From: Betaproteobacteria bacterium
GTDB lineage: Bacteria; Pseudomonadota; Gammaproteobacteria; Burkholderiales; Thiobacillaceae
NCBI GenBank assembly: GCA_016219425.1
Contig: JACRNB010000003.1
Span: 1-43,513, forward strand
Direction of reading: 5' to 3'
DNA: 43,513 nucleotides
Of this stretch, positions 4,412-31,170 are shown in pieces (position 1 is the stretch's first letter; every line of letters begins with the position of its first letter). The position numbers and the translations under genes were made by a program. A model generated the notes under the pieces. The model was not told where the DNA came from and made no database searches. It worked only from the letters and a program-made list of their open reading frames with translations.

Positions 4412-7400
4412 ATGTCCTCTGTCTTTCCGCCTCCTGGCCAGCGCCTGCGCCTTGTTCTTCCCCCCGGTTCTGCCGACAGCCTGCAACTCGCCGGCCTGGC
4501 GCGCAGCAAACGTCTTCTCATCCTCACCGGCAACGCTCAGGACGCCGCCCGTCTGACCGAGGAGATGGCCTGGTTCGACCCCGCCCTTTCCGTGCGCCTG
4601 TTCCCGGACTGGGAAACCCTGCCCTACGACCCCCTCTCGCCCCATCCGGACATCGTTTCGGAGCGCCTGGCCACCCTTTGGCTGGCCCACGACGCACGGG
4701 TGGACGCGCTCATCGCCCCCGCCGCCACCGCCATGCAGCGCCTGTGTCCGGCGGACTACCTCAACGCCCACGCCTTCCTGCTCAAGGAGAAGGATCGGCT
4801 GGACGCCGAGCGCCTGCGCGCGCGCCTCACGGCAGCGGGTTACAGCGCGGTATCGCAGGTGTTGAGTCCGGGCGAGTTCGCGGTGCGCGGCGGCCTGCTT
4901 GACCTGTACCCCACCGGCAGCGCCCTGCCCTACCGCATCGACCTGTTCGATGACGAGATCGAGTCCATCCGCACCTTCGACCCGGATACCCAGCGCACCC
5001 TCTACAAGGTGGCGGAGATTCGCCTGCTGCCGGCGCGGGAGACGCCCCTGGACGAGGCGGGTGTGACGCATTTCCGGCAAAGCTTCCGCGAGCGCTTCGA
5101 GGGCGACCCGTCCAAGAGCCAGGTCTACAAGGATGTCTCCAACAAGCTCGCGCCGGGGGGCGTGGAGTACTACCTGCCCCTGTTCTTCGACGCCACCGCC
5201 ACCCTGTTCGACTACCTGGGGCCGGATACCGCCCTGGTGTTGCACGGCGATGTGCAAACGGCGGTGGAAGGCTTCTGGAGCGACACCCAGAGCCGCCACC
5301 GTCTGATGCAGGGCGACAAACACCGCCCCCTGCTGCCGCCGGGCGACCTGTTTTTGATGCCGGATCAGTTTTTTGGAGCGATGCGGCCTTATGCGCGGGT
5401 GGAGCTGAGCGGCGCCCGTAGCCCGGATGCAGGCCCAAGGCCGGAATCCGGGGAGCCTGCCGAGGCCCCGGATTCCGCTGCGCTCCATCCGGGCTACGCC
5501 GCTTCGAGCGGCCCCGGCATGCAGGCCGGGGCGCGCCCTGCAAGGGAGGGAGCCCGGTTCGCGAAGGCAATCGTTGCTCCCTCACCCCAAACCCCTCCCC
5601 CGGTGGGGGAGGGGCTTCACTATCTCCCCGCCCCCGCCGTGGAGGTGGACCGCAAGGCGGATAACCCCTACGGTCGCCTGCAAGTCCATCTGGACGGTTT
5701 CCAGGGCGCCACCTTGCTGGTGGCGGAGAGCCTGGGCCGGCGCGAGACCCTGGCCAATGCGCTGGGGGAGTACGGGCTCAAACCAACGCTGGCGGAGGGC
5801 TGGCCTTTACCCCCCTCCCCCTTCGGGGGAGGGGCGGGGGGTGAGGGAGCAACGGTGGCTTTGGCAAAGGGTGTTCCCTCACCCCTGACCCCTCCCCCGG
5901 GGGGGGAGGGGAATACACAAGGGCGCTTCACCCTCACCACCGGCCCCCTGGCCGCCGGCTTCATCGACACCGCCGCCCGGCTTACGGTGCTGACGGAGAC
6001 CGAGCTCTACGCCCGCACCGCCGCCACCCGCCGCCATCGGGAGAAGCGCGCCAGCACCGCCGAGGGCCTGCTGAAAGACCTGGCGGAACTCAAGATCGGC
6101 GACCCGGTGGTGCATGTGCAGCACGGCATCGCGCGCTATCTGGGCCTCACCGGCATGGACATGGGGGTGGGCGAGGAGGAGTTCCTCACCCTGGAGTTCG
6201 CCGGCGGCGACAAGCTCTATGTGCCGGTGGCGCATCTGCACCTGATTGCCCGCTACCTGGGGGGTGACCCGGACGCCGTGCCGCTGCACCGCCTGGGCAG
6301 CGGCCAGTGGGAGAAGGCCAAGCGCCGCGCCATGGAAAAGGCGCGCGATTCGGCGGCGGAACTGCTCAACCTCTACGCCCAGCGCGCCGCGCGCGAGGGC
6401 CACGCGTTCGAGATCAGCCCGCACGAACTGGACGCCTTCGCCGCCGGTTTCGGCTTCGACGAGACGCCGGACCAGCAGGCCGCCATCGACGCCGTCATCG
6501 CCGACATGACCTCGGGCCGGCCCATGGACCGCCTGGTGTGCGGCGATGTCGGCTTCGGCAAGACCGAGGTGGCCCTGCGCGCCGCCTTCGTTGCGGTTTC
6601 GGGCGGGCGTCAGGCGGTGGTGTTGTGCCCCACCACCCTGCTCGCGGAACAGCACTTCCAGACCTTCTCCGACCGTTTCGCCGATCTGCCGGTGCGCATC
6701 GCCGAACTCTCCCGCTTCCGCAGTCCCAAGGAGGTGAGCGCGGCCATGGCGGGGCTGGCGGCGGGCCAGATCGACATCGTCATCGGCACCCACAAGCTGT
6801 TGCAGAAGGACATGGTGTTCAAGCGTCTGGGGCTGGTGATCGTGGACGAGGAACACCGCTTCGGCGTGCGCCAGAAGGAGCGCCTGAAGGAGATGCGCGC
6901 CGAGGTGGACGTGCTCACCCTCACCGCCACCCCCATCCCGCGCACCATGGCGATGTCGCTGGAGGGCATCCGCGACTTCTCCGTGATCGCCACCGCGCCG
7001 CAGAAGCGCCTGGCGATCAAGACCTTCGTGCAGCCCTACAGCGCCGGCCTGATCCGCGAGGCGGCCCTGCGCGAGCTGAAGCGCGGCGGCCAGATCTACT
7101 TCCTGCACAACGAGGTGGAGACGATAGGGAATATGCGCGAGACGCTGGAAAAGCTGCTGCCGGAGGCGCGCATCGGCATCGCCCACGGCCAGATGCCGGA
7201 ACGCGAACTGGAGCATGTGATGCGCGACTTCACGCACCAGCGCTTCAACCTGCTCTTGTGTTCCACCATCATCGAAACCGGCATCGACGTGCCTACCGCC
7301 AACACCATCCTCATGCATCGCGCCGACAAGTTCGGCCTGGCGCAGTTGCACCAGTTGCGCGGGCGCGTCGGACGCTCGCACCACCAGGCCTACGCCTACC

Positions 7401-8092
7401 TGCTCACGCCGCCGGACGGGGTCAAGGTCAGCCCCGGCGCCCAGAAGCGCCTGGAGGCGATCCAGGCCATGGAGGAACTGGGTTCCGGCTTCTACCTCGC
7501 CATGCACGACCTGGAGATTCGCGGCGCCGGCGAGGTGCTGGGGGAGAGCCAGAGCGGCGAGATGCAGGAGGTGGGCTTCAACCTGTTCAACGACATGCTG
7601 AAGATGGCGGTGAAGTCCTTGAAGGAAGGCCGCGAACCGGACATGGACGCCCCGCTGGCCGTCACCGCCGAGATCAACCTGCACACCCCGGCCCTGCTGC
7701 CGGAGGCGTACTGCGAGGACATCCACGAGCGTCTGGTGCTCTACAAGCGCCTCGCCAACTGCGAAAGCGCCGCGGAACTGGATGCCTTGCAGGAGGAGTT
7801 GATCGACCGTTTCGGCCTGCTGCCCGAAGCCGGGGAGGCCCTGATGGCGGTACACCGCCTGCGCCTGCAAACCAAACGCTACGGCATCGCCCGCCTGGAA
7901 GCGGGGCCGGATTCCACCAGCATCCAGTTCATCCCCAACCCGCCGGTGGAGCCCATGAAGATCATCAAACTGATCCAGACCCGGCGCGACTACAAACTCT
8001 CGGGCCAGGACCGGCTGCGCATCGAACGCCCCTGCCCCACCCTGGAAAAACGGCTGGCGCTGGTGACGGAGTTTCTGAGGGAGATTGGCTGA
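4412..8092 (+). CDS. mfd: Transcription-repair coupling factor Mfd, with repeat-derived inserts
   Basis: A 1226-residue DNA translocase that removes RNA polymerase stalled at lesions and recruits UvrA. The N-terminal UvrB-like part is intact. The RNA-polymerase-interacting domain lies around 560-640 (VHVQHGIARY). The translocase has GDVGFGKT at 711-718 (Walker A), DEEH at 812-815, and RGRVGRS from 983. The C-terminal TRCF domain ends at 1226. Mfd is usually about 1130-1160 residues; the excess is explained by two blocks, residues ~334-405 and ~467-500. Their DNA consists of palindromic repeats (listed separately) translated in frame. They fall before and within the small domain preceding the RID, so the core motifs are untouched. 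The start is ATG 4412. Confidence 0.97.
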   Translation: MSSVFPPPGQRLRLVLPPGSADSLQLAGLARSKRLLILTGNAQDAARLTEEMAWFDPALSVRLFPDWETLPYDPLSPHPDIVSERLATLWLAHDARVDALIAPAATAMQRLCPADYLNAHAFLLKEKDRLDAERLRARLTAAGYSAVSQVLSPGEFAVRGGLLDLYPTGSALPYRIDLFDDEIESIRTFDPDTQRTLYKVAEIRLLPARETPLDEAGVTHFRQSFRERFEGDPSKSQVYKDVSNKLAPGGVEYYLPLFFDATATLFDYLGPDTALVLHGDVQTAVEGFWSDTQSRHRLMQGDKHRPLLPPGDLFLMPDQFFGAMRPYARVELSGARSPDAGPRPESGEPAEAPDSAALHPGYAASSGPGMQAGARPAREGARFAKAIVAPSPQTPPPVGEGLHYLPAPAVEVDRKADNPYGRLQVHLDGFQGATLLVAESLGRRETLANALGEYGLKPTLAEGWPLPPSPFGGGAGGEGATVALAKGVPSPLTPPPGGEGNTQGRFTLTTGPLAAGFIDTAARLTVLTETELYARTAATRRHREKRASTAEGLLKDLAELKIGDPVVHVQHGIARYLGLTGMDMGVGEEEFLTLEFAGGDKLYVPVAHLHLIARYLGGDPDAVPLHRLGSGQWEKAKRRAMEKARDSAAELLNLYAQRAAREGHAFEISPHELDAFAAGFGFDETPDQQAAIDAVIADMTSGRPMDRLVCGDVGFGKTEVALRAAFVAVSGGRQAVVLCPTTLLAEQHFQTFSDRFADLPVRIAELSRFRSPKEVSAAMAGLAAGQIDIVIGTHKLLQKDMVFKRLGLVIVDEEHRFGVRQKERLKEMRAEVDVLTLTATPIPRTMAMSLEGIRDFSVIATAPQKRLAIKTFVQPYSAGLIREAALRELKRGGQIYFLHNEVETIGNMRETLEKLLPEARIGIAHGQMPERELEHVMRDFTHQRFNLLLCSTIIETGIDVPTANTILMHRADKFGLAQLHQLRGRVGRSHHQAYAYLLTPPDGVKVSPGAQKRLEAIQAMEELGSGFYLAMHDLEIRGAGEVLGESQSGEMQEVGFNLFNDMLKMAVKSLKEGREPDMDAPLAVTAEINLHTPALLPEAYCEDIHERLVLYKRLANCESAAELDALQEELIDRFGLLPEAGEALMAVHRLRLQTKRYGIARLEAGPDSTSIQFIPNPPVEPMKIIKLIQTRRDYKLSGQDRLRIERPCPTLEKRLALVTEFLREIG
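5418..5497. repeat. REP pair translated inside mfd
   Basis: GTAGCCCGGATG at 5418-5429 is matched perfectly by CATCCGGGCTAC at 5486-5497. Inside it CGGAATCCGGGG (5442-5453) pairs with CCCCGGATTCCG (5466-5477). This is a head-to-head pair of GTAG-headed hairpins, related to the single copies at 31171-31207 and 29145-29180. It encodes mfd residues ~336-362 without a stop. A further GGCCCCGGCATGC-type hairpin follows at about 5510-5530. Confidence 0.9.
5572..5614. repeat. Half of a C-rich composite repeat inside mfd
   Basis: This is the right-hand module of the composite repeat: CGTTGCTCCCTCACCCC, a short link, then the hairpin CCCCTCCCCC/GGGGGAGGGG. It is read in frame as mfd residues ~387-401 (VAPSPQTPPPVGEG). 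The matching left module is absent or decayed; only GGGAGGGAGC near 5544 resembles it. Confidence 0.8.
5811..5911. repeat. Complete C-rich composite repeat inside mfd
   Basis: The left module (5811-5854) is a CCCTCCCCC hairpin followed by GGTGAGGGAGCAACG. After an 18-base spacer, the right module (5872-5911) is TTCCCTCACCCC followed by a second C/G hairpin. The two modules are inverted copies of each other. It is translated as mfd residues ~467-500, Pro/Gly rich (PPSPFGGGAGGEGAT, then PSPLTPPPGGEG). Confidence 0.85.
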
Positions 8093-8132
8093 TCCAGCCG
8101 TGAAAATCAGCGCATCCCGATTACAAATGCTC

Positions 8133-8190
8133 GTAGGTGCGAATTCATTCGCACAATCAATTGGTTATGTGCGAATGAATTCGCACCTAC
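8133..8190. repeat. Perfect 22-bp inverted repeat (REP-type hairpin pair)
   Basis: The 224-base gap after mfd contains two perfect 22-base arms, 8133-8154 and 8169-8190, separated by 14 AT-rich bases. Each arm starts or ends with GTAG/CTAC and is itself a small hairpin (GTGCGAA...TTCGCAC). It could fold into a very stable stem in mfd mRNA and protect or attenuate it. The rest of the gap (8191-8316) is AT-rich with a possible -35 (TTGACG at 8231-8236) but no convincing -10. Confidence 0.88.
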
Positions 8191-8316
8191 TCAGGGCGCA
8201 CGCGGGGAACAAAAAATCAGCAAATCCTAATTGACGCAGCGCAAGATAAAATTATTGAAACCATTTTCTAATCGCGCCGATAAGCCTTTTATCGACCTCG
8301 CGTCAGAACGGACTCC

Positions 8317-8544
8317 ATGACTTCTTCTTATGTATTGCTGCTGTGGCTCACCCTGGCGAGCGGCCAGAGGCAGATCCTGTCGCACCAGAATTTCCCCTCG
8401 GAGCCGGCCTGCAAGGCCGCTGCCGTCACCCAGGTGGAAAAGCTGACGCAGCCGGGGAGAACGGTCCACTTCCAATGCCTGATCTCCCATGAAGAAGTGA
8501 CCGACGACCGGCTCGACGCCGACGGCAACCTCATTCAGAAATAG
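8317..8544 (+). CDS. Small uncharacterised protein
   Basis: A 75-residue protein with a hydrophobic start (SYVLLLWLTLASG). It has two Cys residues (in EPACKAA and FQCLIS) about 22 residues apart and an acidic tail. The Cys pair and hydrophobic N-terminus suggest an exported or membrane-anchored protein with a disulphide, but there is no clear cleavage site. I do not recognise the family. The ATG at 8317 has no strong Shine-Dalgarno. It sits alone between mfd and smc and converges on smc with a 12-base gap. The frame is free of repeats and has normal codon use, so it is probably real. Confidence 0.55.
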   Translation: MTSSYVLLLWLTLASGQRQILSHQNFPSEPACKAAAVTQVEKLTQPGRTVHFQCLISHEEVTDDRLDADGNLIQK

Positions 8545-8556
8545 GCCCTCTGGCGG

Positions 8557-11500
8557 TCACACCGCCATCCGCACCGCATCCTCCACATCCACCGCCACCG
8601 GGCGCGAGACGCCGGGCTCGGGCATGGTGACGCCGACCAGATGGGTGGCCATCTCCATGGTGATGCGGTTGTGGGTGATGAACAGGAACTGGGTCTGGTC
8701 CGACATCTTCTTCACCATGGCGCAGTAGCGCTCGGTATTGCTGTCGTCCAGAGGGGCGTCCACCTCGTCCAGCAGGCAGAACGGGGCGGGGTTGAGGCGG
8801 AAGAAGGCGAACACCAGCGAGAGCGCGGTCAAGGCCTTTTCGCCGCCGGAGAGCAACTGGATCGAGGCGTTCTTCTTGCCCGGCGGCTGCGCCATGACGG
8901 TGAGGCCGGCGTCCAGGATCTCCTCGCCGGTCAGCATGAGTTCCGCGTGGCCGCCGCCGAACAACTCCATGAACAGGCTCTGGAATTCGCGGCTGACCTT
9001 GTCGTAGGTGGCCCTCAGACGCGCGCGGGTCTCGGCGTCGATGCGGCGGATGGCGTCTTCCAGGGTATTGGCGGCGGTCTCCAGGTCGGCGGACTGGGCG
9101 TCGAGGTACTGCTTGCGTTCGTCGGCGACCTTGAGTTCGTCCAGGGCGGCCATGTTGACCGGACCCAGTTCCGTGATGCCGCGTTCCAGGCGATCCAGTT
9201 CGCCGCGCAGCCAGACGTCGCCGCGCGCGGTGATGCCGGCCTGCTCCGCCTGCGCCGCCAGGGCGGTCTCGTCCACGCCTTCCAGTTCCTCGTGGTAGCG
9301 GGCCTCTGAGAGGCGCGCCTCCTGGAGCTTGAGTTCCATGGCCTGAAAACGCTCGCGCAGGGGCTCCAGGGCATGCTCGATGCGCAGGCGTGCGGCGTCC
9401 TGTTCACGCAGGTTGAGGTTGGCGCCTTCCAGGCGTTCCCGCGCCGCGGTGAGGGCGGTCTCGGCAACGCGGCGTTGCGCCAGGGCGGCTTGCAGGGTGT
9501 CCTGGATGGGGGCCTCGTGCGCCTGTTCCAGTTCGGCTTGCAGGCGCGCCTGTTCCCGCGCCAGGTCTTGCAGGGACTGCTCGCCGCGCGCGGCGCGATC
9601 CGCCAGTTCCTGGATGCGGTTGCCCAGGGCGCGCACCTGGAAGGCGGCCTCTTGCGCCTCGCGCTCGGCGCTGCGCTGGGCCTCGCGCGCGGCCTGTACG
9701 CGCTGGTCCAGGGTCTGGCGCTTCTGGCGCGCCGCGTCCAGGCGTTCGCGTGCGGTTTCGAGTTGTTGTTCCGCGTCGTACTGGCGCTCGCCGGCCTGGT
9801 TCCAGGCGTCTTCCTCGGCGGCCATGAGGTCGTAGATCTCGTCCAGTTCCTTCTGCACCTGGGCGCGCCGTTCCGTCACCCGTTTCAGCGCCTCCTGGCC
9901 GCGCGCCACCTCGGCGCGCAACTGGCCGGCCTGGGCGTGGGCCTGCTGGATCTGCACTTGCAGGGCGTCCACCTGGCGGCGCGCGGTCTGGAGGGCCTCT
10001 TCGGCGCGCTGCACCTCGACGCTGGCCTGTTCCTGGCGGGCGCGGGCCTGGTCGCTTGCCTGTTCCAGGCGTTCGATCTCACGCGCACGGGCAAGCAGGC
10101 CGTGGTGGCCCTTCTCCGGGGCGTTGAAGGTGAGGGTGTCGCGGCTGACCCGGTGGCCTTCCCGGGTGGCGAAGTAGCCGCCGGGTGGGAGTTCTGTACG
10201 TCGCGCCACGGCGTAGGCCAGGGTGTCGGCGGCAAAGACCAGGGCGAGGCGGTCCGCCAGCAGGCGGACGACGAGGGCGGGGGTGGCGTGGATGAGGCCG
10301 GTGAGGGAGCGGAGGTTTTCTCCCTCCCCCCCCGGGGGAGGGCCGGGGTGAGGGAGCAACGGCGGCATAGTGGAGGGAGCGGCTATTGCATACGTCGCTC
10401 CCTCACCCCCAACCCCTCCCCCGGTGGGGGAGGGGAGCAGAAACTCAAACCTTCCTTCCGGCGGCTGCTCCAGCCACTCGTCGTGCACCTCCGCCGCCAG
10501 GGCGGCCATGGATTCGCCCAGCGCCGCCTCCACCGCCGTCTCCCAGCCCGGCTCGACGCGTAGCGTCTGCCACAGGCGTTGCACCCGTTCCAGGCCGGCG
10601 CGGGCAAGCCAGGAGGCGCCTTCCGACTCCTTCGCCTGGGCGGTCTCCTGCATACGTTTCAAGGCCGCGAGTTCGGCGTCGATGCGGTGCTGGTCGCGGT
10701 TGGCGTTGTCCAGGGACTGACGCGCCTGACGCAGGGCGATGTCCCGATCCGGCAGCTGGCTGCGGGCGTTGTCCAGGTACTCCTCCAGGCTGGCGGCGCG
10801 TTCTTCCAGGGCCTCCAGGTCCATCTGCTGGCGCTCCACATGGCTGAGATCCTGCGCGGCCAGCGCCTCCTTTTCCTGCATCAGACGCAGTTCGCGCGCC
10901 TTGTGCTGATCCAGCACCCGTTCGGCATGGGCGCGATGGGCGTCTTCCACCTGCATGGCCTGCTCGAACTGGGCCATCTCGCGCTGCACCACGGCCACGG
11001 CGGCCTGCGCCTCGCGCCAGGCGGCGTCGATCTCGGGGAAGGCCTCGCCCGCCATGGCGGCCCGTTCAGACAGGATCTCGGCCTGTTCCTCGGCCTGGGT
11101 CTGTTCCTCGCGGCGCTGGGCGGCCTCGGCGTGGAGCGCGGCGATCTCGTCCTGCACCGCCTGCCGGCGTCCGCCGTTGAGCCCGATTTCCTGCGCCAGA
11201 CGGTCGCGCGTGACGCCCAGGTGCTTGAGCTCCTGTTCCACCCGCGCCACCTCGGCGCTGGCCTCGTAGAACCCGGCCTGGGCGGTGTTGAGCCCTTCCG
11301 TGGCCTCGAACTGGGCCAGGCGCTGGGCCTCCAGTTCCGCCTCCAGGCGGCGCAGGTCGGCGGTCTTGGCCTCGATCTCGTTACGCGCCGCTTCCAGTTG
11401 CCGTTCCAGGTCCGCCTGGCGCACCTGGGCGTCGCGCCGGCGCACCAGCGAGAGGAAACGGGTCTTGAGGGTGCGATCCGCATCCAGGGCGAAGTAGCGC

Positions 11501-12147
11501 CGCGCCACCTCCGCCTGCACCGTGAGCTTTTCCAGTTGCCGCGCCAGTTCTTCGCGGATGTCGGCAACGCGGGCAAGGTTTTCGCGCGTGTCGCGCAGGC
11601 GGTATTCCGTCTCCTTGCGCCGTTCCTTGTACTTGGACACGCCCGCCGCCTCTTCCAGGAAGCCGCGCAGCTCCTCCGGCTTGGCGTCGATGATGCGGGA
11701 GATCATGCCCTGCTCGATGATGGCGTAGGCGTCGCCCCCCAGGCCGGTGCCCAGGAACAGGTCGGCCATGTCCTTCTTGCGCACCTGCACGTTGTTGATG
11801 TGGTAGCTGGAATCGCCCTGGCGCGTCAGCACGCGCTTGACCGAGATCTCGGCGTAGTGCGACCACTGGCCGGGGGCCTTGCCGTCGGTGTTGTCGAACA
11901 GAAGTTCCACCGAGGCGCGGGACGCCGGCTTGCGCCCGACCGAGCCGTTGAAGATGACGTCCTGCAAGGTCGCCCCGCGCAACTCGCGCGCCTTGGATTC
12001 ACCCAGCACCCAGCGCACGGCGTCGATCACGTTGGACTTGCCGCAGCCATTGGGGCCGACCACGCCGGTAAGCTGCGCGGTGGCGGGAATGGTCACCGGG
12101 TCCACGAAGGATTTGAAGCCGGCGATGTGGATGTGCTTGAGGCGCAA
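8557..12147 (-). CDS. smc: Chromosome segregation protein SMC, with a repeat-derived hinge insert
   Basis: A 1196-residue ATPase that condenses and organises the chromosome with ScpA/ScpB. The Walker A motif GPNGCGKS is at 31-38, long coiled coils flank a hinge at about 490-680, and the ABC signature LSGGEK is at ~1099-1104 with the Walker B/DEVD aspartate ~1127. I place the start at TTG 12147, giving MRLKHIHIAGFKSF as in other SMCs. An ATG-started version would add 33 residues and run into queF on the other strand. Residues ~571-609 lie in the hinge and are encoded by a C-rich composite repeat. They are Pro/Gly rich and absent from ordinary SMCs. No good ribosome-binding site precedes the TTG. 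Confidence 0.95.
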   Translation of the reverse strand: MRLKHIHIAGFKSFVDPVTIPATAQLTGVVGPNGCGKSNVIDAVRWVLGESKARELRGATLQDVIFNGSVGRKPASRASVELLFDNTDGKAPGQWSHYAEISVKRVLTRQGDSSYHINNVQVRKKDMADLFLGTGLGGDAYAIIEQGMISRIIDAKPEELRGFLEEAAGVSKYKERRKETEYRLRDTRENLARVADIREELARQLEKLTVQAEVARRYFALDADRTLKTRFLSLVRRRDAQVRQADLERQLEAARNEIEAKTADLRRLEAELEAQRLAQFEATEGLNTAQAGFYEASAEVARVEQELKHLGVTRDRLAQEIGLNGGRRQAVQDEIAALHAEAAQRREEQTQAEEQAEILSERAAMAGEAFPEIDAAWREAQAAVAVVQREMAQFEQAMQVEDAHRAHAERVLDQHKARELRLMQEKEALAAQDLSHVERQQMDLEALEERAASLEEYLDNARSQLPDRDIALRQARQSLDNANRDQHRIDAELAALKRMQETAQAKESEGASWLARAGLERVQRLWQTLRVEPGWETAVEAALGESMAALAAEVHDEWLEQPPEGRFEFLLPSPTGGGVGGEGATYAIAAPSTMPPLLPHPGPPPGGEGENLRSLTGLIHATPALVVRLLADRLALVFAADTLAYAVARRTELPPGGYFATREGHRVSRDTLTFNAPEKGHHGLLARAREIERLEQASDQARARQEQASVEVQRAEEALQTARRQVDALQVQIQQAHAQAGQLRAEVARGQEALKRVTERRAQVQKELDEIYDLMAAEEDAWNQAGERQYDAEQQLETARERLDAARQKRQTLDQRVQAAREAQRSAEREAQEAAFQVRALGNRIQELADRAARGEQSLQDLAREQARLQAELEQAHEAPIQDTLQAALAQRRVAETALTAARERLEGANLNLREQDAARLRIEHALEPLRERFQAMELKLQEARLSEARYHEELEGVDETALAAQAEQAGITARGDVWLRGELDRLERGITELGPVNMAALDELKVADERKQYLDAQSADLETAANTLEDAIRRIDAETRARLRATYDKVSREFQSLFMELFGGGHAELMLTGEEILDAGLTVMAQPPGKKNASIQLLSGGEKALTALSLVFAFFRLNPAPFCLLDEVDAPLDDSNTERYCAMVKKMSDQTQFLFITHNRITMEMATHLVGVTMPEPGVSRPVAVDVEDAVRMAV
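10322..10436. repeat. Complete C-rich composite repeat inside smc
   Basis: It has the same architecture as the element at 5811-5911: a C/G hairpin plus GGGGTGAGGGAGCAACG (10322-10361), a ~31-base spacer, then CGTCGCTCCCTCACCCCC and a second C/G hairpin to 10436. Read on the minus strand it encodes SMC residues ~571-609 (LPSPTGGGVGGEGAT ... LPHPGPPPGGEG). Confidence 0.88.
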
Positions 12148-12167
12148 GGGTTTTTGGGCGGGGTCCG

Positions 12168-12173
12168 TATAAT
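12168..12173 (+). promoter_or_regulatory. Possible -10 box for queF
   Basis: A perfect TATAAT lies 32 bases before the queF start codon, in the short divergent gap with smc. No good -35 hexamer is found at the right spacing, so this is only a candidate. Confidence 0.35.
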
Positions 12174-12205
12174 CCGCCGCGATTCTAACTGCCCCTTCCG
12201 CCGCC

Positions 12206-12625
12206 ATGCCGAGCCAGCCTTCCAAGCAACTGGAGACCTTCGACAACCCCCAGCCGGGCCGCGATTACCACATCCACATGGAGATCCCGGAGTTCACCTG
12301 CCTGTGCCCCAAGACCGGGCAGCCGGATTTCGCGGTGCTGTTCCTCGACTACATCCCCGACCAGCGTTGCGTGGAACTGAAGAGCCTCAAGCTCTACATC
12401 TGGTCGTTCCGCCAGGAAGGCCATTTCCACGAGGACGTCACCAATCGCATCCTGGATGATCTGGTGCGCGCCACCGAACCCCGCTTCATGCGCCTGACCG
12501 CCAAGTTCTATGTGCGCGGCGGCATCTTCACCAACGTGGTGGCGGAACACCGCAAGCCGGGCTGGGAACCCGCCCCCCGCGTGGAATTGACGCAGTTCGC
12601 GCAAAACTCCAACACGCGCGGTTAG
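12206..12625 (+). CDS. queF: NADPH-dependent 7-cyano-7-deazaguanine reductase QueF
   Basis: A 139-residue short-form (YkvM-type) QueF. It reduces preQ0 nitrile to preQ1 amine in queuosine biosynthesis, a tRNA wobble modification. The nucleophilic Cys34 lies in [10 protein letters not shown] together with Asp41. The QueF signature ELKSLKLY is at 57-64, followed by the conserved [10 protein letters not shown] segment. The length is normal for the unimodular class. It is divergent from smc, and no other queuosine genes are in the window. ATG 12206 lies 58 bases from the chosen smc start, leaving room for a divergent promoter. Confidence 0.96.
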
Positions 12626-12691
12626 CGCGTTACGGTCAACGCCCGCCCCTCTCCATCCGTTTCGCAGGCCATCCCCTCCTCCCGGCGCCCC

Positions 12692-13708: not shown

Positions 13709-13717
13709 CCGACCCCC

Positions 13718-15482: not shown

Positions 15483-15490
15483 GCGCGTCC

Positions 15491-15557: not shown

Positions 15558-15561
15558 GCCT

Positions 15562-16494: not shown

Positions 16495-16578
16495 TTAGGT
16501 AGAGCTCTGTTGGCGTTATCGGCGTTCTGCGTAAAAACTTGAACCAATAGATGGGGGTGGTATGACGGGGTTGGCTGC

Positions 16579-16611
16579 CGGGCGGAAGCCAGGGTCTGGG
16601 GACCCCGCCCG
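16579..16611 (-). terminator. GC-rich stem-loop after the Crp/Fnr gene
   Basis: CGGGCGG (16579-16585) pairs with CCGCCCG (16605-16611), with further pairing inside. It lies just after the Crp/Fnr stop and before rluB. There is no U tract, so it may be an attenuator or a Rho-assisted site rather than an intrinsic terminator. Confidence 0.35.
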
Positions 16612-16629
16612 AACGTGAGAGTTCCTTGG

Positions 16630-17981: not shown

Positions 17982-18006
17982 CGCGCGGCCCCGGATGCCG
18001 ATTCAG

Positions 18007-18022
18007 GTAGCGCAGGCGCTAC
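18007..18022. repeat. Miniature GTAG palindrome between rpoS and the HAD gene
   Basis: GTAGCGC, AG, GCGCTAC: a perfect 16-base palindrome with the same ends as the larger REP pairs at 15491 and 35318. It may be a deleted remnant of such a pair. Confidence 0.6.
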
Positions 18023-18033
18023 GAAGCGGGCCA

Positions 18034-18975
18034 TTACAGCAGCCCGTCCTTGGACAACCCTTTGCGGCGCAGGATGCGGCGCAGCGCCTGAAGCGCCTCG
18101 ACCTGGATCTGGCGCACGCGCTCGCGCGTGACCCCAAGGTGCTCGGCCAGTTGTTCCAGCGTCGAAACCTCCTGGTTGTTGAGGCCGAAGCGGCGCTCGA
18201 TCACCCAGCGGTGCTTTTCCGTGAGCTCGCGCAGCCACTCGTGCACATAGTTTTCCACCTCGGCGATCTGCAACAGGTCTTCCGGGCGCTCGGCGTTCTC
18301 GTCGGCGATGGCCTCGCCGATGGAGAGGCTGGGGTCGATGTCCAGGGGGGCGTCCAGTGACGTGACCCGATCATTCAAGGCCATCACCCGTCGCACGTCT
18401 TCCGCCGGCTTGCCGATGAGGGCGGCGATCTCCTCCACCCCCGCGTCGGTGATCCCATGAGTCTCCAGATGGCGCTTGGCGCGCAGACAGATGTTGAGTT
18501 CCTTGATCACATGCACCGGCAGGCGAATGGTGCGCGACTGGTTCATGATCGCCCGCTCGATGTTCTGGCGTATCCACCAGGTGGCGTAGGTGGAGAAGCG
18601 GAAACCGCGTTCCGGTTCGAACTTCTCCAGCGCGTGCATGAGCCCCAGGTTGCCTTCCTCGATCAGGTCCAGCAGCGACAGGCCGCGGTTGGCGTAGTGC
18701 TTGGCGATGTTCACCACCAGGCGCAGGTTGTGCTCGATCATCTTCTGGCGCGCGTCGAAGTCCCCCGCCCGCGAGAGGGTGGCCAGCCGGCGCTCTTCAT
18801 CCGGACTGAGCAGATGTTCACGCCCGATCTCGTTGAGATAGAGCTGGGTGACGTCCGGCAGCTCGTCGAAGTCGTGCTCGACGTGCTCGCCATGCTCGAC
18901 GACGGGAGGCGCTTCCGCCTCCGCGTCCAGGGGCGGTTCGTCAGGGCCCGACTCGGAAAAATTCTCTTCTTGCAT
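18034..18975 (-). CDS. rpoS: Stationary-phase sigma factor RpoS
   Basis: A 313-residue sigma-70-family factor that directs RNA polymerase to general-stress and stationary-phase promoters. Region 1.2 is [11 protein letters not shown], and region 2 runs from [16 protein letters not shown] through [14 protein letters not shown]. Region 3 is around 175-240. Region 4.2 ends in [19 protein letters not shown]. The acidic N-terminus (residues 1-35) and overall length fit RpoS rather than RpoD. It lies 9 bases after nlpD, the standard order in proteobacteria. In E. coli the main rpoS promoter is inside nlpD, and the same is plausible here. No strong ribosome-binding site is seen before ATG 18975, consistent with leader-based control. 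Confidence 0.96.
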
Positions 18976-18984
18976 GCAATCGTC

Positions 18985-19872
18985 TTAACCGGTTTTCGGC
19001 AGATAACCCAGGGGGTCCACGGGTTTGCCGGATTCGCGTATTTCGAAATGGAGTTTGACCCGATCCGCGTCGCTGTCGCCCATTTCGGCAATGACTTGGC
19101 CTCGCGCCACTTTCTGGCCTTCCGTCACATGGATGCGGGCGTTATGCGCATAGGCGGAGAGCAGGGTCTGACCGTGGCGGATGATGATGAGTTTTCCATA
19201 CCCCCGCAAGCCGGAACCGGCGTAGACCACGCGCCCCGTCGCCGCCGCCTGCACCGGCTGGCCGCCCTTGCCGGCAATGTCGATGCCCTTGCTGAGGCCC
19301 TCGCCATAGCGGATGAGCAGATCGCCGCGGCTGGGCCAGGCCCACACCTCCGGCGCGGCGTCCTGAGGCTCGTTCAACGCCACGGGATGGGACGCGGCCT
19401 GAGCGGTAGGCTCCGCCGGCAGGGGGCGCGGCTCCACCCGCGCCTGGGACGGGACGGGACGGGTGTCCACGGAACGCGCCAACTCCCGGTCCTCCACCCC
19501 CGCCCGTTCCGGCGCGGCGGCGGTGGTGACCACGGCGGCGGGACGGGGTGGCGGGAGTACGCGCAACGCGTCTCCGGCGCGGATGCGGGCGGGGTCCGCA
19601 ATCCCGTTCCAGGCCGCCAGTTGGCGGTAATCCAGACCATGCTCGAAGGCGATCTTGTACAGGGTGTCGCCGGGCTGGACCCGGTGCTGACCCGCCGGAG
19701 CCGGTGCATACGAGGCCTTGGCCGCCTTGCCGGGCAGCGTATCCCGCACCGGGGCCGCCACCTGGCTGGCGCCGCATGCGGACAACAGGAGCGCCAGCAG
19801 GATCACCCCACGCCGCGTCCCCCGAAAAGCGCTCGCAGGTGGATCGGCGCGGTGCACCGCGACGCGCCTCAA
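18985..19872 (-). CDS. nlpD: Lipoprotein NlpD (LysM plus degenerate M23 domain)
   Basis: A 295-residue lipoprotein that in enteric bacteria activates the amidase AmiC at the septum. A basic start and hydrophobic VILLALLL lead to the lipobox LSAC with Cys33. A LysM domain lies at ~63-108 (HRVQPGDTLYKIAFEHGL), then a Pro-rich linker, and a C-terminal M23 domain from ~185. The first metal-binding His is missing (KGIDIAG instead of HxGxD), and LHFEIR lacks the first His of HxH. Both match E. coli NlpD, which is not itself an enzyme. The first codon appears to be TTG 19872, overlapping the pcm stop (TTGA); a GTG a few codons downstream is possible. Confidence 0.92.
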   Translation of the reverse strand: MRRVAVHRADPPASAFRGTRRGVILLALLLSACGASQVAAPVRDTLPGKAAKASYAPAPAGQHRVQPGDTLYKIAFEHGLDYRQLAAWNGIADPARIRAGDALRVLPPPRPAAVVTTAAAPERAGVEDRELARSVDTRPVPSQARVEPRPLPAEPTAQAASHPVALNEPQDAAPEVWAWPSRGDLLIRYGEGLSKGIDIAGKGGQPVQAAATGRVVYAGSGLRGYGKLIIIRHGQTLLSAYAHNARIHVTEGQKVARGQVIAEMGDSDADRVKLHFEIRESGKPVDPLGYLPKTG

Positions 19873-20525
19873 CTGATGCCCGGCAGCAAAGGAACAAAAC
19901 GCACGGACTCCAGCGTCTTTTCGCTGTAGCCGCCCTCGGGCAGCGCTTCCACCAGAATCAGGGACTGCACGTCCCCCGCGCCCACCGGGGCGACCAGACG
20001 CGCGCCGGGCTTGAGTTGCTGCTTCATCTCGTCCGGGATGTAGGGCATGGCCGCCGCCACGACGATGGCGTCATAGGGCGCGCCGGCGGGGTAGCCGAAG
20101 CTGCCGTCGGAGTTCTTCACCACCACGTTGTTGACGCGCAGTTCGCGCAGGCTCTGGCGCGCGCGCCCGACCAGCTTGGTGATGCGCTCCACGCTCACCA
20201 CCTCCTTCGCCAGACGCGAGAGGATGGCAGCTTGGTAGCCGCAGCCGCCGCCCACCTCCAGCACCCGCTCCAGACGCTGGCCGCGGCACGCGAGCTGGCA
20301 GGAAATGGCGACGGTGTAGGGGCTGGAGATGGTCTGGCCCTGGCCGATGGGCAGCGGGGTCTCGTCATAGGCCTGATGCTGGATGCCCTCTTCCACAAAG
20401 ATGTGGCGCGGCACCGCGCTCATGGCCGCCAGCACCTGCGCGTCGGTGATGCCCTGTTCCTTGAGTCGCTCGATCATGCGCGCGCGGGCGCGCTGGGAGG
20501 TCATGCCGAGTCCATGCGGATTCAT
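19869..20525 (-). CDS. pcm: Protein-L-isoaspartate O-methyltransferase
   Basis: A 218-residue enzyme that methylates isoaspartyl residues with S-adenosylmethionine, starting repair of aged proteins. The SAM-binding motif I is [13 protein letters not shown], a little different from the usual EIGTGSGYQ. The active-site segment is ISSPYTVA, and the C-terminal LVAPVGAG motif is present. The start is ATG 20525, because it overlaps the surE stop as ATGA; the frame itself continues upstream through surE. It couples to surE upstream and nlpD downstream. Confidence 0.94.
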
Positions 20526-21268
20526 CGGCCCAACCAATCCTTCACCGGCGCCATCTGGGTGTAACGGGTCAGGTCCAGTTGCAGGGGAGTCACCGAAATG
20601 CAGCCCTGGGCCACGGCGTGGAAGTCCGTGCCCGGCCCTGCATCCTGGGCCGCCCCCGCCGCCCCCACCCAGTACATGGTCTGGTTGCGCGGGTTGACGG
20701 TCTTCACCGTGTCCTGCGCCTTGTGGCGACGTCCCAGGCGCGTGACCTCGACGCCCTGGATCTGATCCGCCGGCAGGTCCGGCACGTTCACGTTGAGCAG
20801 CACCGGCTCGGTAAAGGGGTGCGCCGCAAAACGATCCACCAGGCCGGCGACGAAATCGGCGGCGGTCTGGAAGTGGTCCTGCTGGATATTGGCCAGGGAC
20901 ACCGCCACCGAGGGGATGCCGAGCAGAAAGCCCTCCGTCGCCGCCGCCACGGTGCCGGAATAGACCGTGTCGTCGCCCATGTTGGCGCCGTGGTTGATGC
21001 CGGAAATGACCATCTCCGGCATCTCCGGCAACACGCCGGTGACGGCCAGATGGACGCAATCGGTCGGGGTGCCGTTCACATAATGAAACCCGCCCGGCGT
21101 GGTGCGCACCATCAGGGGGCGATCCAGGGTGAGGGAGTTGCTGGCGCCGCTGCGGTCCCGCTCCGGCGCCACCACGGTGACGACATGACCATGCCCGGCA
21201 AGGGTGGCGGCCAGGACGGCCAGACCGGGGGCGAAATAGCCGTCGTCATTACTGAGGAGGATGCGCAT
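20522..21268 (-). CDS. surE: 5'/3'-nucleotidase SurE
   Basis: A 248-residue metal-dependent survival nucleotidase that dephosphorylates nucleoside monophosphates. The N-terminal [10 protein letters not shown] carries the metal ligands Asp8 and Asp9. The SGAS(N)S loop, the [18 protein letters not shown] motif and VLLNVNVP follow in the family order. The start is set at ATG 21268, because upstream in-frame codons do not resemble the family and overlap the gloB leader. The stop overlaps pcm as ATGA. It is divergent from gloB with 127 bases between them. Confidence 0.95.
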
Positions 21269-21395
21269 GGGAGGCAGGTGGATGAAACGGCGATGATGGG
21301 CGCAAACTCCGCGCGAAGCGGCGCATTTTATGCGGCTACATCCGGAGTGGATAGCCGCGATTAACCCCGGCGACGTTTCAGGGAGCCCCCCCCGC

Positions 21396-22160
21396 ATGAT
21401 CCAGATCACCCCCATCCCCGCCTTTCGCGACAACTACATCTGGGCCATCCACGATGACCGCCATGCGGCGCTGGTGGACCCCGGCGCCGCCGCCCCGGTG
21501 GAAGAGTGGTTGCAGGCCGCCGGCCTCACGGCCTGCGCCATCCTGGTCACCCATCACCATGACGACCACTGCGGCGGCAGCGCAGACCTGGCCCGCACTC
21601 GGGGGATACCGGTGTACGGCCCCGCCGAGGAATCCATCCCCGGAAAAACGCATCCGGTCACGCAGGGAGAGGGGGTGGAACTGCCAGAGCTGGGCCTCTC
21701 CTTCGCGGTTCTCTCCACCCCCGGACACACCCTGGGGCACGTCTGTTACACGGGCCATGGCTGGGCCTTCACCGGCGACACCCTGTTCGCCAACGGCTGC
21801 GGACGCCTGTTCGAGGGAACGCCGGCCCAGATGTACGCCTCGCTGACGCAACTGGCCGCTCTGCCGGGAGACACAAAAATCTACTGCGCCCATGAGTACA
21901 CCCTGGCCAACATCGCGTTCGCCCTGGAGGTGGAAGAGGCGAATCCCGACCTGCTGGCCTGGTTCGAGCGCGCGCGCCGGGAACGCAAGGCGGGACGCCC
22001 CACTCTGCCCACCACACTGGACCAGGAGCGCCGCACCAACCCCTTTTTGCGTTGCCGCCTGGACGCCGTAAAACAGGCGGCTGAAGCCTGGGCGGGACAC
22101 CCCCTGGCGAACGAGGTCGAGGTCTTTGCCAGCCTGCGCGCCTGGAAGAACACCCTCTGA
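21396..22160 (+). CDS. gloB: Hydroxyacylglutathione hydrolase (glyoxalase II)
   Basis: A 254-residue metallo-beta-lactamase-fold thioesterase. It hydrolyses S-lactoylglutathione to lactate and glutathione, the second step of methylglyoxal detoxification. The metal-binding THHHDDH is at 52-58, followed by the STPGHTLGH and FTGDTLF motifs and the YCAHEYT segment typical of GloB. The C-terminal substrate domain ends in [14 protein letters not shown]-type sequence. The start is ATG 21396, with a purine-rich GGGAG at 21381-21385. It is followed by mltD and divergent from surE. Confidence 0.95.
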
Positions 22161-22164
22161 ACGC

Positions 22165-22178
22165 CCCTGACATCAGGG
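22165..22178 (+). terminator. Short hairpin followed by a T run after gloB
   Basis: CCCTG, four bases, CAGGG lies just after the gloB stop, with GGCTTTTTG starting two bases downstream. The stem is short, so termination is probably weak. A further inverted T5/A5 pair (22183-22198) lies before mltD. Confidence 0.4.
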
Positions 22179-22242
22179 TGGCTTTTTGTCGCCAAAAAGG
22201 TTAAATTCCGTTCAATTTCAAGGAATTGCAGCATCTACGCCC

Positions 22243-23601
22243 ATGCATATCAAGCTGATCGCATTCCTCGCCGCACTGTTCCTGAGCACCACTGGACACT
22301 GTGCGGACGAAGCCCCTCAGGGGGATCTCAAGTTCGCCTACACCCTGTCCAACCCGGCAGGCGACCCCTATCAGACGCCGCAAGTCCCGGGCGCAGCCGT
22401 TGCCGCCCAGGCCAACCTGTGGGATCGCATTCGCGCGGGTTTCCTGCTGCCGGAGTCCAACCCCCAGCTCACCCGCACACAGGAACGCTGGTTCGCCGCC
22501 CACCCCGGCTATCTCGACCGGGCCGTGGAACGCAGCCGGCTGTACCTGTTCCACATCGTCGAAGAGGTGGAAAAGCGCGGCATGCCGATGGAGATCGCCC
22601 TGCTGCCCATGATCGAATCGGCCTTCGACCCGCAGGCCCTGTCGCCCATGAAGGCCTCCGGCATGTGGCAGTTCATTCCTTCCACCGGGCGCGTCTACGG
22701 GCTGGAGCAGAACGCCTGGTTCGATGGCCGCAAGGACGTGATCCAGGCCACCAATGCCGCTCTGGACTATCTGCAAAAACTGCACGGCATGTTCGGTGAC
22801 TGGGAACTGGCCCTGGCCGCCTACAACTGCGGCGAAGGCTGTGTGGCCCGCGCCCGCAGCCGGGGCAAGGACGGCGTCGATTACGCCAGCATCAAGCTGC
22901 CGACCGAGACCCGCAATTACGTGCCCCGACTGGTCGCCGTGCGCAATCTGGTGCGTGATCCCGCCAGCTTCGGCATCACCCTGCGCAACATCCCCAGCGA
23001 GCCCTACTTCCTGCGCATCAACCTGGCAAAACCCATGGAAGCGCGTCAGGTGGCCCGTCTGGCGGAGATGAACCTGAATGACTTTCTCGCCCTCAACCCC
23101 GGCTTTCAGCGCCGCGTCATCCACACCGCGAGCCAGGACGTGCTGCTGCTGCCGGTGGATCGGGTGGAGGCCTTCCAGTTCAACCTGCACCGCGAGGGCC
23201 TGGACAAGCTTGCACTCCAGTCCTACAGCGCGCGCAAGGGGGAAAAAGCCAGCGGCATCGCCGCCCGTTTTGGCGTGACCATGCAGTGGCTGAGCGACCA
23301 CAACCCGCTCAAGCTGCGTCGTGGCGAGGTGGCCAACGCCCAGACCCTGATGGTGCCTTCCAACAAGAGCGCGGCCAGGGCGGAAGCGCTCCCGCCGGAG
23401 CCGAAGGAACCCGTCAAGGTGTTCAACGCCAAGGTCTCCAGCAAGGGCACGGTGTTACGCACCCATACCGTGCGCCGGGGCGACACCCTGGACCGCGTGG
23501 CGCGGCTCTACCGCGTGAAGGTGGCGGACCTGCGCCGCTGGAATGTGGACCTGGAACCTCTGCGTCCGGGTTCCAAACTGGTCATCAAGATCACGAGCTG
23601 A
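22243..23601 (+). CDS. mltD: Membrane-bound lytic murein transglycosylase D (MltD-like)
   Basis: A 452-residue periplasmic enzyme that cleaves the MurNAc-GlcNAc bond of peptidoglycan with 1,6-anhydro product formation. A signal sequence (residues 1-20, ending TGHCA) may be a lipoprotein signal with Cys20, though the lipobox is poor. The SLT domain has catalytic Glu125 in LPMIESAFDP, then SGMWQFIP and the YNCGEG motif. Two LysM-type segments follow, one near 330-375 and a clear one at the C-terminus (THTVRRGDTLDRVARLYRV). The start is ATG 22243; AAGGA at 22219 is rather far upstream. The gene ends 11 bases inside the convergent ABC ATPase gene. Confidence 0.9.
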   Translation: MHIKLIAFLAALFLSTTGHCADEAPQGDLKFAYTLSNPAGDPYQTPQVPGAAVAAQANLWDRIRAGFLLPESNPQLTRTQERWFAAHPGYLDRAVERSRLYLFHIVEEVEKRGMPMEIALLPMIESAFDPQALSPMKASGMWQFIPSTGRVYGLEQNAWFDGRKDVIQATNAALDYLQKLHGMFGDWELALAAYNCGEGCVARARSRGKDGVDYASIKLPTETRNYVPRLVAVRNLVRDPASFGITLRNIPSEPYFLRINLAKPMEARQVARLAEMNLNDFLALNPGFQRRVIHTASQDVLLLPVDRVEAFQFNLHREGLDKLALQSYSARKGEKASGIAARFGVTMQWLSDHNPLKLRRGEVANAQTLMVPSNKSAARAEALPPEPKEPVKVFNAKVSSKGTVLRTHTVRRGDTLDRVARLYRVKVADLRRWNVDLEPLRPGSKLVIKITS

Positions 23602-25453
23602 CGCCCGTCAACCCCCGGCCCGGCGCGGATTCCAGCAGCAACCGGGTGTAGTCGCTCACAGGTCGGGTCAACACGGTCTCGACGTCGCCCTCTTCCACGA
23701 TCCGCCCACCCCGCATCACCGCCACCCGATGGGCCAGATAGCCCACCACGGGCAGGTTGTGGGTGATGAACAGGTAGGACAGCCCGCGCGCGGCCTGGAT
23801 ATCCGCCAGCAGGTTGAGGATCTGGGCCTGCACCGAGACATCGAGCGCGCTGGTGGGTTCATCCAGGATCAGCAGCTTCGGCTCCACCGCCAGGGCGCGG
23901 GCGATGGCGATGCGCTGACGCTGGCCGCCGGAGAATTCGTGCGGATAGCGCTGTAGGGCGTCGGCGGGCAGGCCCACCTGGTCCAGAAGTTGGGCGATGC
24001 GGGCGTTGCGGGCGGCGCGATCCAGTTCCGGCAACAGGGCCAGCAGGCCCTCCTCCAGGATGGTCCCCACTTTCATGCGCGGGTTGAGGGAGGAATAGGG
24101 ATCCTGGAACACGATCTGCATCTCGCGCCGCTTGCGCCGCAGGGCCTCGCCGGAGAGATTTTCCAGGGCCTCACCGCCCATCGCCACCGAGCCGCCAGTG
24201 GGCTCGATCAGCCGCAACACCGCCCGCGCCAGGGTGGTCTTGCCGCAGCCGGACTCGCCCACCAGGGCCAGGGTCTCCCCTTGATTCACCGTCAGACTGA
24301 CGCCATCGACGGCCTTGAAGTGGCCCACGGTACGGCGCAGCAGACCCTGGCGGAGGGGGAAATGGACGGCGAGATCGGTCAGCCGCAGGACCACTCCCTC
24401 CCCCTCCGGGGGAGGGCTGGGGTGAGGGAGCGACGGTAAATAGAGCGTGAACGCTTGCGCAGGCGTTGCTCCCTCACCCCCAGCCCCTCCCCCGGAGGGG
24501 GAGGGGGGTGAAAACAGGTGGCAACGCACGGCATGCCCAGGCGCCGTTTCCAGCAACTCTGGCGCTTCGTTGCGACAGCGCTCGAACACCCTCGGGCAAC
24601 GCTCGGCGAAGCGACAGCCGACGATCACCGCATCCGGCGCCGGCACCCGGCCCGGCAGGCTGTCCAGACGCTGGCCGCGCCGTTCCAGCCTCGGCAGCAC
24701 GGCGAACAGCTTTTGCGTGTAGGGGTGATGGGGCTGGGCGTAGAGGCTTGCCCGACCCGCCCATTCCACGATCTGGCCGGCGTACATCACCGCCACCCGG
24801 TCGGCCATGTCGCCGGCCACGTCGAGGTCGTGCGTGATGAGCAGCAGGCCCATGCCCCGGCTTTGCTGCAATGCCTTGAGCAGCTTGAGAATCTGGGCCT
24901 GCACGGTGACGTCCAGGGCCGTGGTGGGTTCGTCGGCGATGAGCACCTCGGGCTCGCCCGCCAGCATCATGGCGATGAGGGCGCGCTGGCGCTGGCCGCC
25001 GGAAAGCTGGAAGGGATAGGCGTCCAGCCGCTCGGTTGGCAGCCCCACGGCTTCGAGCAACTCCCGGCCCACGGCGCTCGCATCCGCCTCGGGGCGGTGG
25101 ACGGCCAGGGTCTCGGCGATCTGCTGGCCCACGGTCATGACCGGGTTCAGGCTGGTCTGCGGCTCCTGGAAGATCATCGCCAGCCGCCCGCCGCGCACGT
25201 CGCGCATGGCGGCCTCGGGCAGGGTGAACAGGCTCTCGCCTTCCAGTTCCAACACCCCTGACGCCACCCGCGCGCCTTCCGGCAGCAGACGCATGAGGGC
25301 CAGGGCGGTCATGGACTTGCCGCAACCGGATTCGCCCAAGAGGGCCACGCATTCATCGCGCCCGATGGCGAGGCTGACCCCGTCCACCGGCGCAAGGCAG
25401 CGGCCTTCGACGTTGATCTCGACGCGCAAATCGGTGAGCGTCAGGGCGCTCAT
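23591..25453 (-). CDS. Fused two-domain peptide ABC transporter ATPase (YejF-like), with repeat-derived linker
   Basis: A 620-residue protein with two ABC ATPase domains in one chain, as in YejF. It powers import of peptides through the two permeases encoded upstream. The first domain has Walker A GESGCGKS at 40-47, LSGGQRQR and LIADEPTTALD. The second has GESGCGKT at about 398, then FSGGQRQR and LILDEPTSALD. Each is followed by an oligopeptide-transporter C-terminal stretch (CRFAERCP after domain 1). Residues ~316-353, between the domains, come from a C-rich composite repeat and are Pro/Gly rich. YejF is normally about 530-550 residues. The start ATGA overlaps the upstream permease stop. Confidence 0.92.
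   Translation of the reverse strand: MSALTLTDLRVEINVEGRCLAPVDGVSLAIGRDECVALLGESGCGKSMTALALMRLLPEGARVASGVLELEGESLFTLPEAAMRDVRGGRLAMIFQEPQTSLNPVMTVGQQIAETLAVHRPEADASAVGRELLEAVGLPTERLDAYPFQLSGGQRQRALIAMMLAGEPEVLIADEPTTALDVTVQAQILKLLKALQQSRGMGLLLITHDLDVAGDMADRVAVMYAGQIVEWAGRASLYAQPHHPYTQKLFAVLPRLERRGQRLDSLPGRVPAPDAVIVGCRFAERCPRVFERCRNEAPELLETAPGHAVRCHLFSPPSPSGGGAGGEGATPAQAFTLYLPSLPHPSPPPEGEGVVLRLTDLAVHFPLRQGLLRRTVGHFKAVDGVSLTVNQGETLALVGESGCGKTTLARAVLRLIEPTGGSVAMGGEALENLSGEALRRKRREMQIVFQDPYSSLNPRMKVGTILEEGLLALLPELDRAARNARIAQLLDQVGLPADALQRYPHEFSGGQRQRIAIARALAVEPKLLILDEPTSALDVSVQAQILNLLADIQAARGLSYLFITHNLPVVGYLAHRVAVMRGGRIVEEGDVETVLTRPVSDYTRLLLESAPGRGLTGVSS
24396..24507. repeat. Complete C-rich composite repeat inside the ABC ATPase gene
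   Basis: C/G hairpin plus GGGGTGAGGGAGCGACG (24396-24435), a ~28-base spacer, then CGTTGCTCCCTCACCCCC and a second hairpin to 24507. On the minus strand it encodes residues ~316-353 in the linker between the two ATPase domains (PPSPSGGGAGGEGAT ... LPHPSPPPEGEG). Confidence 0.88.
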
Positions 25454-26765: not shown

Positions 26766-26773
26766 CCTCTCGC

Positions 26774-31162: not shown

Positions 31163-31170
31163 AACAGCCC

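Follow-up and report, generated by a model that had tools for sequence, protein, structure and literature searches.

Palindromic repeats that are translated within genes are of a known kind. Rickettsia palindromic elements (RPEs) lie in frame in many unrelated, apparently functional proteins, and repetitive extragenic palindromic (REP) sequences were reported in 2013 inside the genes for DNA polymerase I, Uvr, RecBCD and tRNA synthetases (PMC3733652). In the REP/REPIN-RAYT systems (REPIN, REP doublet forming hairpins; RAYT, REP-associated tyrosine transposase), each repeat consists of a hairpin and a foot, the repeats are paired in inverted orientation, and the enzyme gene is bracketed by the same repeats (PMC3733652). 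Other families have no dedicated enzyme, including the CGTC REPs, and REP dimers are found in the same kinds of genes as here; the spread of short palindromic repeats lacking a RAYT is stated to be an open question for the CGTC repeats, and the candidate enzymes named in the available sections of that source are RAYT and TIRYT, not DUF559 (PMC3733652). The present analysis concerns a family of C-rich inverted repeats in a window of 43,513 nucleotides from a Betaproteobacteria bacterium (assembly GCA_016219425.1, contig JACRNB010000003.1, positions 1-43,513; genome labelled G000), where copies are translated within mfd, smc and an ABC transporter gene. The original prediction for this DNA likened the repeats to RPEs, which is apt with respect to in-frame insertion into unrelated genes, and took their protein-coding behaviour to be the novelty, which the 2013 report does not allow. 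What appears to be new is the association with a nuclease of homing type whose gene is itself in frame within host genes: DUF559 (PF04480), which the original prediction did not name, is likely the partner nuclease of the repeats, and likely the more novel part of the system. By contrast with the RAYT systems, the bracketed enzyme is judged to be EDxHD/Vsr-like and not an HUH tyrosine transposase, the GTAG end is lacking, and 42 of 93 repeat clusters are in frame; unlike RPEs, compared here by description only, the repeats occur in another host group and have a nuclease-bearing clade in the same protein sites.

The inverted two-module repeats in the window were found as originally described, at 5811-5911, 10322-10436 and 24396-24507, and translation confirmed that all three genes stay open across them. 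Family matches (Pfam and NCBIfam) that flank or span the inserts also bore out the host assignments, namely Mfd, SMC and a YejF-like double ABC ATPase. In mfd (4412..8092, + strand, 1226 aa), the paired modules, delimited here as 5807..5916 (+), encode PPSPFGGGAGGEGATVALAKGVPSPLTPPPGGEG between a match to the first half of MFD_D3 (427-464) and RID (560-615), and a lone half-module of the same C-rich family, absent from the original prediction, is also in frame at 5570..5619 (+). In smc (8557..12246, - strand, 1229 aa), the pair at 10316..10440 (-) encodes LPSPTGGGVGGEGATYAIAAPSTMPPLLPHPGPPPGGEG in the hinge region, beyond a partial SMC_hinge match (556-587), and in the ABC transporter double-ATPase gene (23591..25453, - strand, 620 aa) the pair at 24390..24511 (-) encodes PPSPSGGGAGGEGATPAQAFTLYLPSLPHPSPPPEGEG between the two ABC domains. 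This Pfam placement agrees with the proposal that all three inserts occupy linkers or loops, and another forward frame of the repeat does run into TGA, as had been noted.

Each module is a hairpin, CCCCTCCCCC-GGN-GGGGGAGGGG, with a G-rich foot, GCTCCCTCACCCC, and a spacer of 2-4 nt (57 distinct half-modules, of which 20 were aligned), and two modules face one another in inverted orientation across a middle segment, usually of 24 nt or of about 10-12 nt, measured between model matches. A covariance model of one module recovered at least 148 halves (E < 2e-5) in 93 clusters genome-wide; the search scored the best 150 candidates, and weak module copies may be missing. Simple inverted pairs account for 46 of the 93 clusters, a many-copy arrangement of paired hairpins like that of REPINs. 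A chance or low-complexity origin was ruled out by a reversed-pattern control, which matched no site in the genome where the paired inverted-module pattern matched 26 exactly. GTAG, the expected end of REPIN/RAYT repeats, was present in 1 of the 57 half-modules, 6-nt flanks included. The tetranucleotide directly before the foot is CGTT in 23, CGTC in 10 and CGTG in 9 half-modules (42 of 57), and whereas the tag of the CGTC REPs stands at the end of the stem-loop (PMC3733652), CGTC here does not adjoin the hairpin, being separated from it by the foot.

Reading frames were called with a codon model that was trained on genes of the window and scored the 300 nt flanking each cluster on either side. 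In the genome-wide tabulation that had been suggested with the original prediction, 42 of the 93 clusters are in frame without a stop, 26 lie on the same strand in another frame, 11 keep the frame with an internal stop, and 14 have one coding flank or none, at odds with the mainly extragenic location of REPIN/RAYT repeats. With the mfd half-module added by hand, the in-frame set comprises 43 copies in 35 open reading frames (ORFs). The usual readthrough peptide is LPSPxGGGAGGEGAT...LPHPxPPPxGEG, and the frame giving PSPxGGGxGGEG is used by 31 of the 43 copies (by motif), bearing out a shared, preferred frame. Partial filtering of the frame by selection was likewise borne out among the 46 simple pairs: the module with a 2-nt spacer, which produces TGA, stands at the coding 5' end in none of 18 in-frame pairs and in 9 of 21 others (p 0.0016; determinable for 18 of 24 in-frame and 21 of 22 other pairs), and a core length of 2 modulo 3 was found in 18/24 in-frame pairs versus 9/22 others (p 0.035). 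This bias in frame and orientation is what selection acting on random insertions predicts. Two outcomes had been set in advance as counting against the prediction, namely the same residues without repeat-like DNA in relatives, and random frames with mostly broken genes; neither was found.

The 35 host ORFs are a varied set, which includes PolA, AcnA, LeuRS, IleRS, ValRS, MetRS, RecG, MurD, Mpl, MetH (two copies), HrpA (three copies), CobT, Cas8g, HemF, an ABC-F protein, HypF, AceF, YgiQ and PurL, and shows the RPE-like pattern of in-frame insertion in unrelated functional genes. Family matches lie on both sides of the insert or across it in 27 of the 35, a hand reading in which the second side is sometimes taken only from the number of matched stretches, and in three of the host ORFs (L214, L221, L256) each side matches a different model; the other 8 have a family match on one side or none. 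The three in-frame copies in the HrpA RNA helicase gene (L237 11058-15131, -) are separate from one another, and the CobT insert (L228 12891-14189, -) consists of two inverted pairs in tandem with an apparent duplicated piece of the host between them.

Empty sites were sought by comparing joined-flank pieces with 22 same-genus genomes, accepting a single match across the joint with a surplus of at most 40 nt. They were found for at least 11 of the 15 host genes searched: in at least 18 genomes for PurL, 17 each for HemF and ValRS, 16 for IleRS, 14 for LeuRS, 19 and 11 for the two MetH sites, 8 for AcnA, 5 for Mpl, 2 for Mfd, and 1 each for CobT and YgiQ. For PolA, SMC, MurD and MetRS, no joined-flank piece passed among the matches listed. 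The proposed absence of the inserts from close relatives thus holds in same-genus genomes wherever they could be compared. In Mfd, two sites carry in-frame repeats that differ by species in 20 same-genus genomes (5/20 at the first site and 7/20 at the second, judged by eye, the remaining genomes looking short or unclear), with peptides of the C-rich, PPLKKGG, HSRESGNP...RLRGND and SPDSAALHPGY kinds. Across the Mfd relatives L063-L082 and L085, at least four distinct repeat-coded peptides were read over the two linkers, all in frame. These data bear on the possibility that the host retains the inserts for a benefit to its proteins or mRNAs, whether as regulatory hairpins, adaptive linkers or otherwise. 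In 87-90 of the 93 clusters the strand called best for coding is the same on both sides, a count that varies with flank length and stands without a matched control, and fewer would be expected for intergenic repeats; the hosts, however, are unrelated proteins, empty sites are common in same-genus relatives, and the Mfd sites hold unrelated repeat families from one species to another, leaving usefulness to the host a very improbable explanation. As a whole, the original prediction stands on in-frame insertion, frame preference, linker positions, selection and absence in relatives, and fails on coding behaviour as the novelty.

RecG of this genome contains an in-frame DUF559 domain between two half-modules. 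In all, 109 DUF559 loci were collected from 41 relatives and from 250 genomes belonging to the order, 71 of which gave a match at 1e-20. When the two 350-nt flanks of a locus were aligned in inverted orientation, the best score reached at least 20 in 64 of 107 loci, which are partly non-independent (e.g. three near-identical copies in G237), and in 4 of 420 placements used as controls within these loci. The median distance between arm and domain is 45 nt upstream and 17.5 nt downstream. Eight loci had a match to the model of the window family on both sides; read by hand, the two nearest modules are oriented towards each other, as they are in the short pairs, in 7 of the 8 (L267, L268, L270-L273 and L287, the exception being L286). 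An independent sample from the phylum, consisting of the 26 among the matches listed that arrived as new loci, had modules on both sides in 11 of 26 loci versus 5 of 102 controls. Three named plasmid records picked from 15 listed gave flank scores of 106 (S. meliloti pSymB), 26 (Azospirillum lipoferum) and 21 (Deinococcus). The RIME repeats of S. meliloti are palindromes of a similar kind. The window module family flanks DUF559 in L287 and other loci, so that, as in miniature inverted-repeat transposable elements (MITEs), the short copies have terminal inverted repeats in common with a larger element; the DUF559 form would be the autonomous one.

Profile searches with DUF559 matched NGO0050 (3hrl, E 1.5e-38) and the homing endonuclease I-Bth0305I (3r3p, E 1.8e-4). 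The predicted structure (mean pLDDT 87) matched the same two entries in Foldseek (3hrl, E 1.8e-8; 3r3p, E 5.2e-4, TM 0.68), with a weak match to E. coli Vsr (E 0.16). By these profile and structure comparisons, DUF559 is an EDxHD/Vsr-like nuclease homologous to I-Bth0305I and belongs with a homing endonuclease family; a DUF559 gene has already been placed in the EDxHD homing endonuclease family, in a passage dealing with inteins (PMC9403480). Toxin subunits and TFB1 also appeared in the profile results with E > 0.2 and were taken as noise. A phage origin of DUF559 was considered and set aside, since the RecG DUF559 domain of this genome (P0001) had no tblastn match at 1e-10 among 50,697 phage records. 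The DUF559 of L294 has a weak type II restriction enzyme match (PADLOC).

Short copies and full DUF559 elements occupy the same protein positions. The left junction residue is common to the short copies of this genome and full elements elsewhere in MetRS (after ...NK(A/E)SL, L363), YgiQ (after ...RHPDPYA, L273) and CobT (after ...ALHG, L268); the right junctions agree in CobT (before ALRCLGGFEI), lie within a few residues in MetRS and are unclear in YgiQ. Within the genus of G112, the MetRS linker was matched in 19 of 21 genomes, 3 of which have a full element, 1 a relic (an apparent half-module), 11 an empty site and 4 an unreadable one, including G557 with a match to the DUF559 portion of the element at the linker. 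At MetRS, close relatives thus differ in whether one and the same site is occupied or empty, as known for homing elements. In this, and in its homologous nuclease domain, the DUF559 element resembles I-Bth0305I, which differs in that it is described as a group I homing endonuclease of phage type (PMC3943268; 'mobile intron protein' in PDB), whereas the present element is translated as a linker. An intein likewise places a nuclease domain in frame inside a conserved protein, but here only a short repeat-coded peptide separates host and DUF559 (MetRS, YgiQ and CobT hosts compared), and no protein-splicing domain was found in any of 8 host ORFs scanned (Pfam, E 0.01), which ruled out an intein.

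A further possibility is a repair or restriction role for DUF559 as a Vsr-like enzyme, which would tend to sit in repeat-rich stretches or target such palindromes without moving them. Such a role would fit Caulobacter VsrA, a DUF559 protein that is needed for a DNA damage response in a methylase mutant and for which a role in mismatch repair has been proposed (PMC12907096), and also the weak similarity of the P0001 domain to DpdF of a candidate defence system (PADLOC, E 1.4e-6). Residence in repeat-rich stretches agrees poorly with the control placements within these loci, of which 4/420 reached the score, and it is hard to explain in this way why RecG, MetRS, CobT, YgiQ, MnmG and LipB contain DUF559 in frame, bordered on either side by repeat-coded peptide, or why full, relic and empty alleles are found at a single MetRS site within a genus, making a non-mobile repair or restriction role distinctly unlikely.

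The repeat type follows the nuclease. On a tree of 107 DUF559 domains (106 columns; 25 of 104 inner branches open), the repeat-type labels need 21 changes, compared with 55.9 when shuffled (0/200 as low). The CCCCCCTTT type is confined to one clade of 20 rows (18 with clear and 2 with mixed labels; support 100/92), whose members come from a number of host families. For the C-rich type, 7 changes are needed. The CCCCCTTT/AAAGGGGG type, which flanks the second DUF559 clade, is found in the window between two transporter genes (26604..26790, no strand assigned). Nineteen DUF559 domains are in frame within or at the end of host genes, a label that needs 4 changes versus 17.7 (0/500 as low). Host matches lie on both sides in 14 of these, several judged by the count of matched stretches, and on one side only in L310 (cut by the end of the locus), L270, L344, L347 and L338. 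The mostly intragenic clade has as hosts RecG in this genome and MetRS, YgiQ, CobT, MnmG and LipB in others. Conserved polar columns all agree with the consensus in 17 of the 19, the exceptions being one column in L273, with E in place of D, and a different column in L363, with R in place of Q. Same-genus genomes with an A-type DUF559 have 31, 68, 144, 145 and 146 modules versus 0-82 in 18 others (one-sided p 0.0016; E up to 1e-6), the three highest counts being lower bounds near the scoring maximum of 150 candidates. Two doubtful genomes are counted among the others, G020 (22 modules, flank unlabelled) and G021 (6 modules, mixed label); p becomes 0.0023 when one of them is added and 0.011 when both are.

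The short copies might instead be ordinary REPINs moved in trans by a RAYT, with the DUF559 genes as bracketed passengers. The paired inverted hairpins with a foot are REPIN-like, and the genome contains two genes of the RAYT type (Y1_Tnp); neither, however, is flanked by the repeats, the nearest detected module being about 3-4 kb away, which weakens a pure RAYT/REPIN explanation, and the fully read one (L093) has its own, different inverted repeats. The near absence of GTAG, the co-segregation of repeat type with DUF559 clade across host families, and the junctions common to full and short forms also speak against transposition by a RAYT, which is therefore considered unlikely. The L093 ORF (805-2085, -; G000:C4, Y1_Tnp 46013-46252) is embedded in frame in a gene for a family-4 uracil-DNA glycosylase, with inverted repeats GTAGCGCAGGCGCCCTCGCCTGCAT at its borders. 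The other gene (L092 1250-2100; G000:C16, Y1_Tnp 257861-258166) lies among repeats reading CEFIRTN/GANSFA in several frames.

The explanation preferred here, and thought somewhat more probable than its negation, is that DUF559 elements are mobile in a homing-like manner, their palindromic ends serving also as protein linkers, and that the window repeats are short non-autonomous derivatives. The window repeats would be short copies of a mobile palindromic element, with two hairpin modules facing each other in inverted orientation, and one frame of the module would give a Gly/Pro-rich, presumably flexible linker free of stops, therefore allowing copies in loops and domain linkers to survive as translated inserts, while copies in genes that bear a stop or shift the frame would be lost, as suggested by what is missing. 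The complete element is likely a DUF559 gene between two modules, in one clade mostly in frame in host proteins. Its nuclease would cut empty alleles and repair would copy the element in, giving a homing-like spread, and the mfd, smc and ABC copies may be derivatives with internal deletions, spread by this reaction or one akin to it. The role that splicing domains play in an intein would fall to the linker-coding ends: because the palindromic ends encode stop-free, flexible linkers, the element could simply be translated, making splicing unneeded. That DUF559 proteins are, more broadly, the mobility enzymes of a wide superfamily of palindromic repeats for which no enzyme is known, with one clade that homes into conserved genes in a splicing-free, intein-like manner, is given about an even chance.

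Several points weigh against homing by DUF559. No movement of the element was observed, mobility and cleavage being inferred, and the derivation of short from long forms could have run in the reverse order. The flank score shows modules on both sides and not their orientation, since the hairpins are self-complementary; 43 of 107 DUF559 loci fall below the repeat score, and 20 of 109 were given no repeat label. The label counts on the tree overstate independence because near-copies and close relatives cluster anyway. G006 has 82 modules with solely B-type DUF559, the relatives are about 80% identical in Mfd protein with linkers too divergent for target duplications to be read, and there is the repair role proposed for Caulobacter VsrA. 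A module-bracketed nuclease that co-varies with repeat type and occurs at the positions of short copies offers a directly testable answer to how repeats spread without a RAYT. A literature search, in sources available in part, found none linking DUF559 to palindromic repeats. If true, homing by DUF559 would amount to a new mode of residence for a selfish element within conserved genes, one without splicing, would explain odd Gly/Pro inserts and DUF559 'fusions' in MetRS, RecG and similar proteins, and would mark natural permissive insertion sites in such enzymes.

The window contains further palindromes of separate families. A GTAG-ended palindrome of the GTAGCCCGGATG... family, likewise not part of the original prediction, lies in frame within mfd at 5413..5498 (+), and others of the GTAGCCCGGATG/CATCCGGGCTACG kind lie at 29145-29186 and 31170-31205. 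An array of about five units of 162 bp, built on the palindrome GTAGGAGCCCGGCTGTGCCGGGCGATA, occupies positions 114-977.

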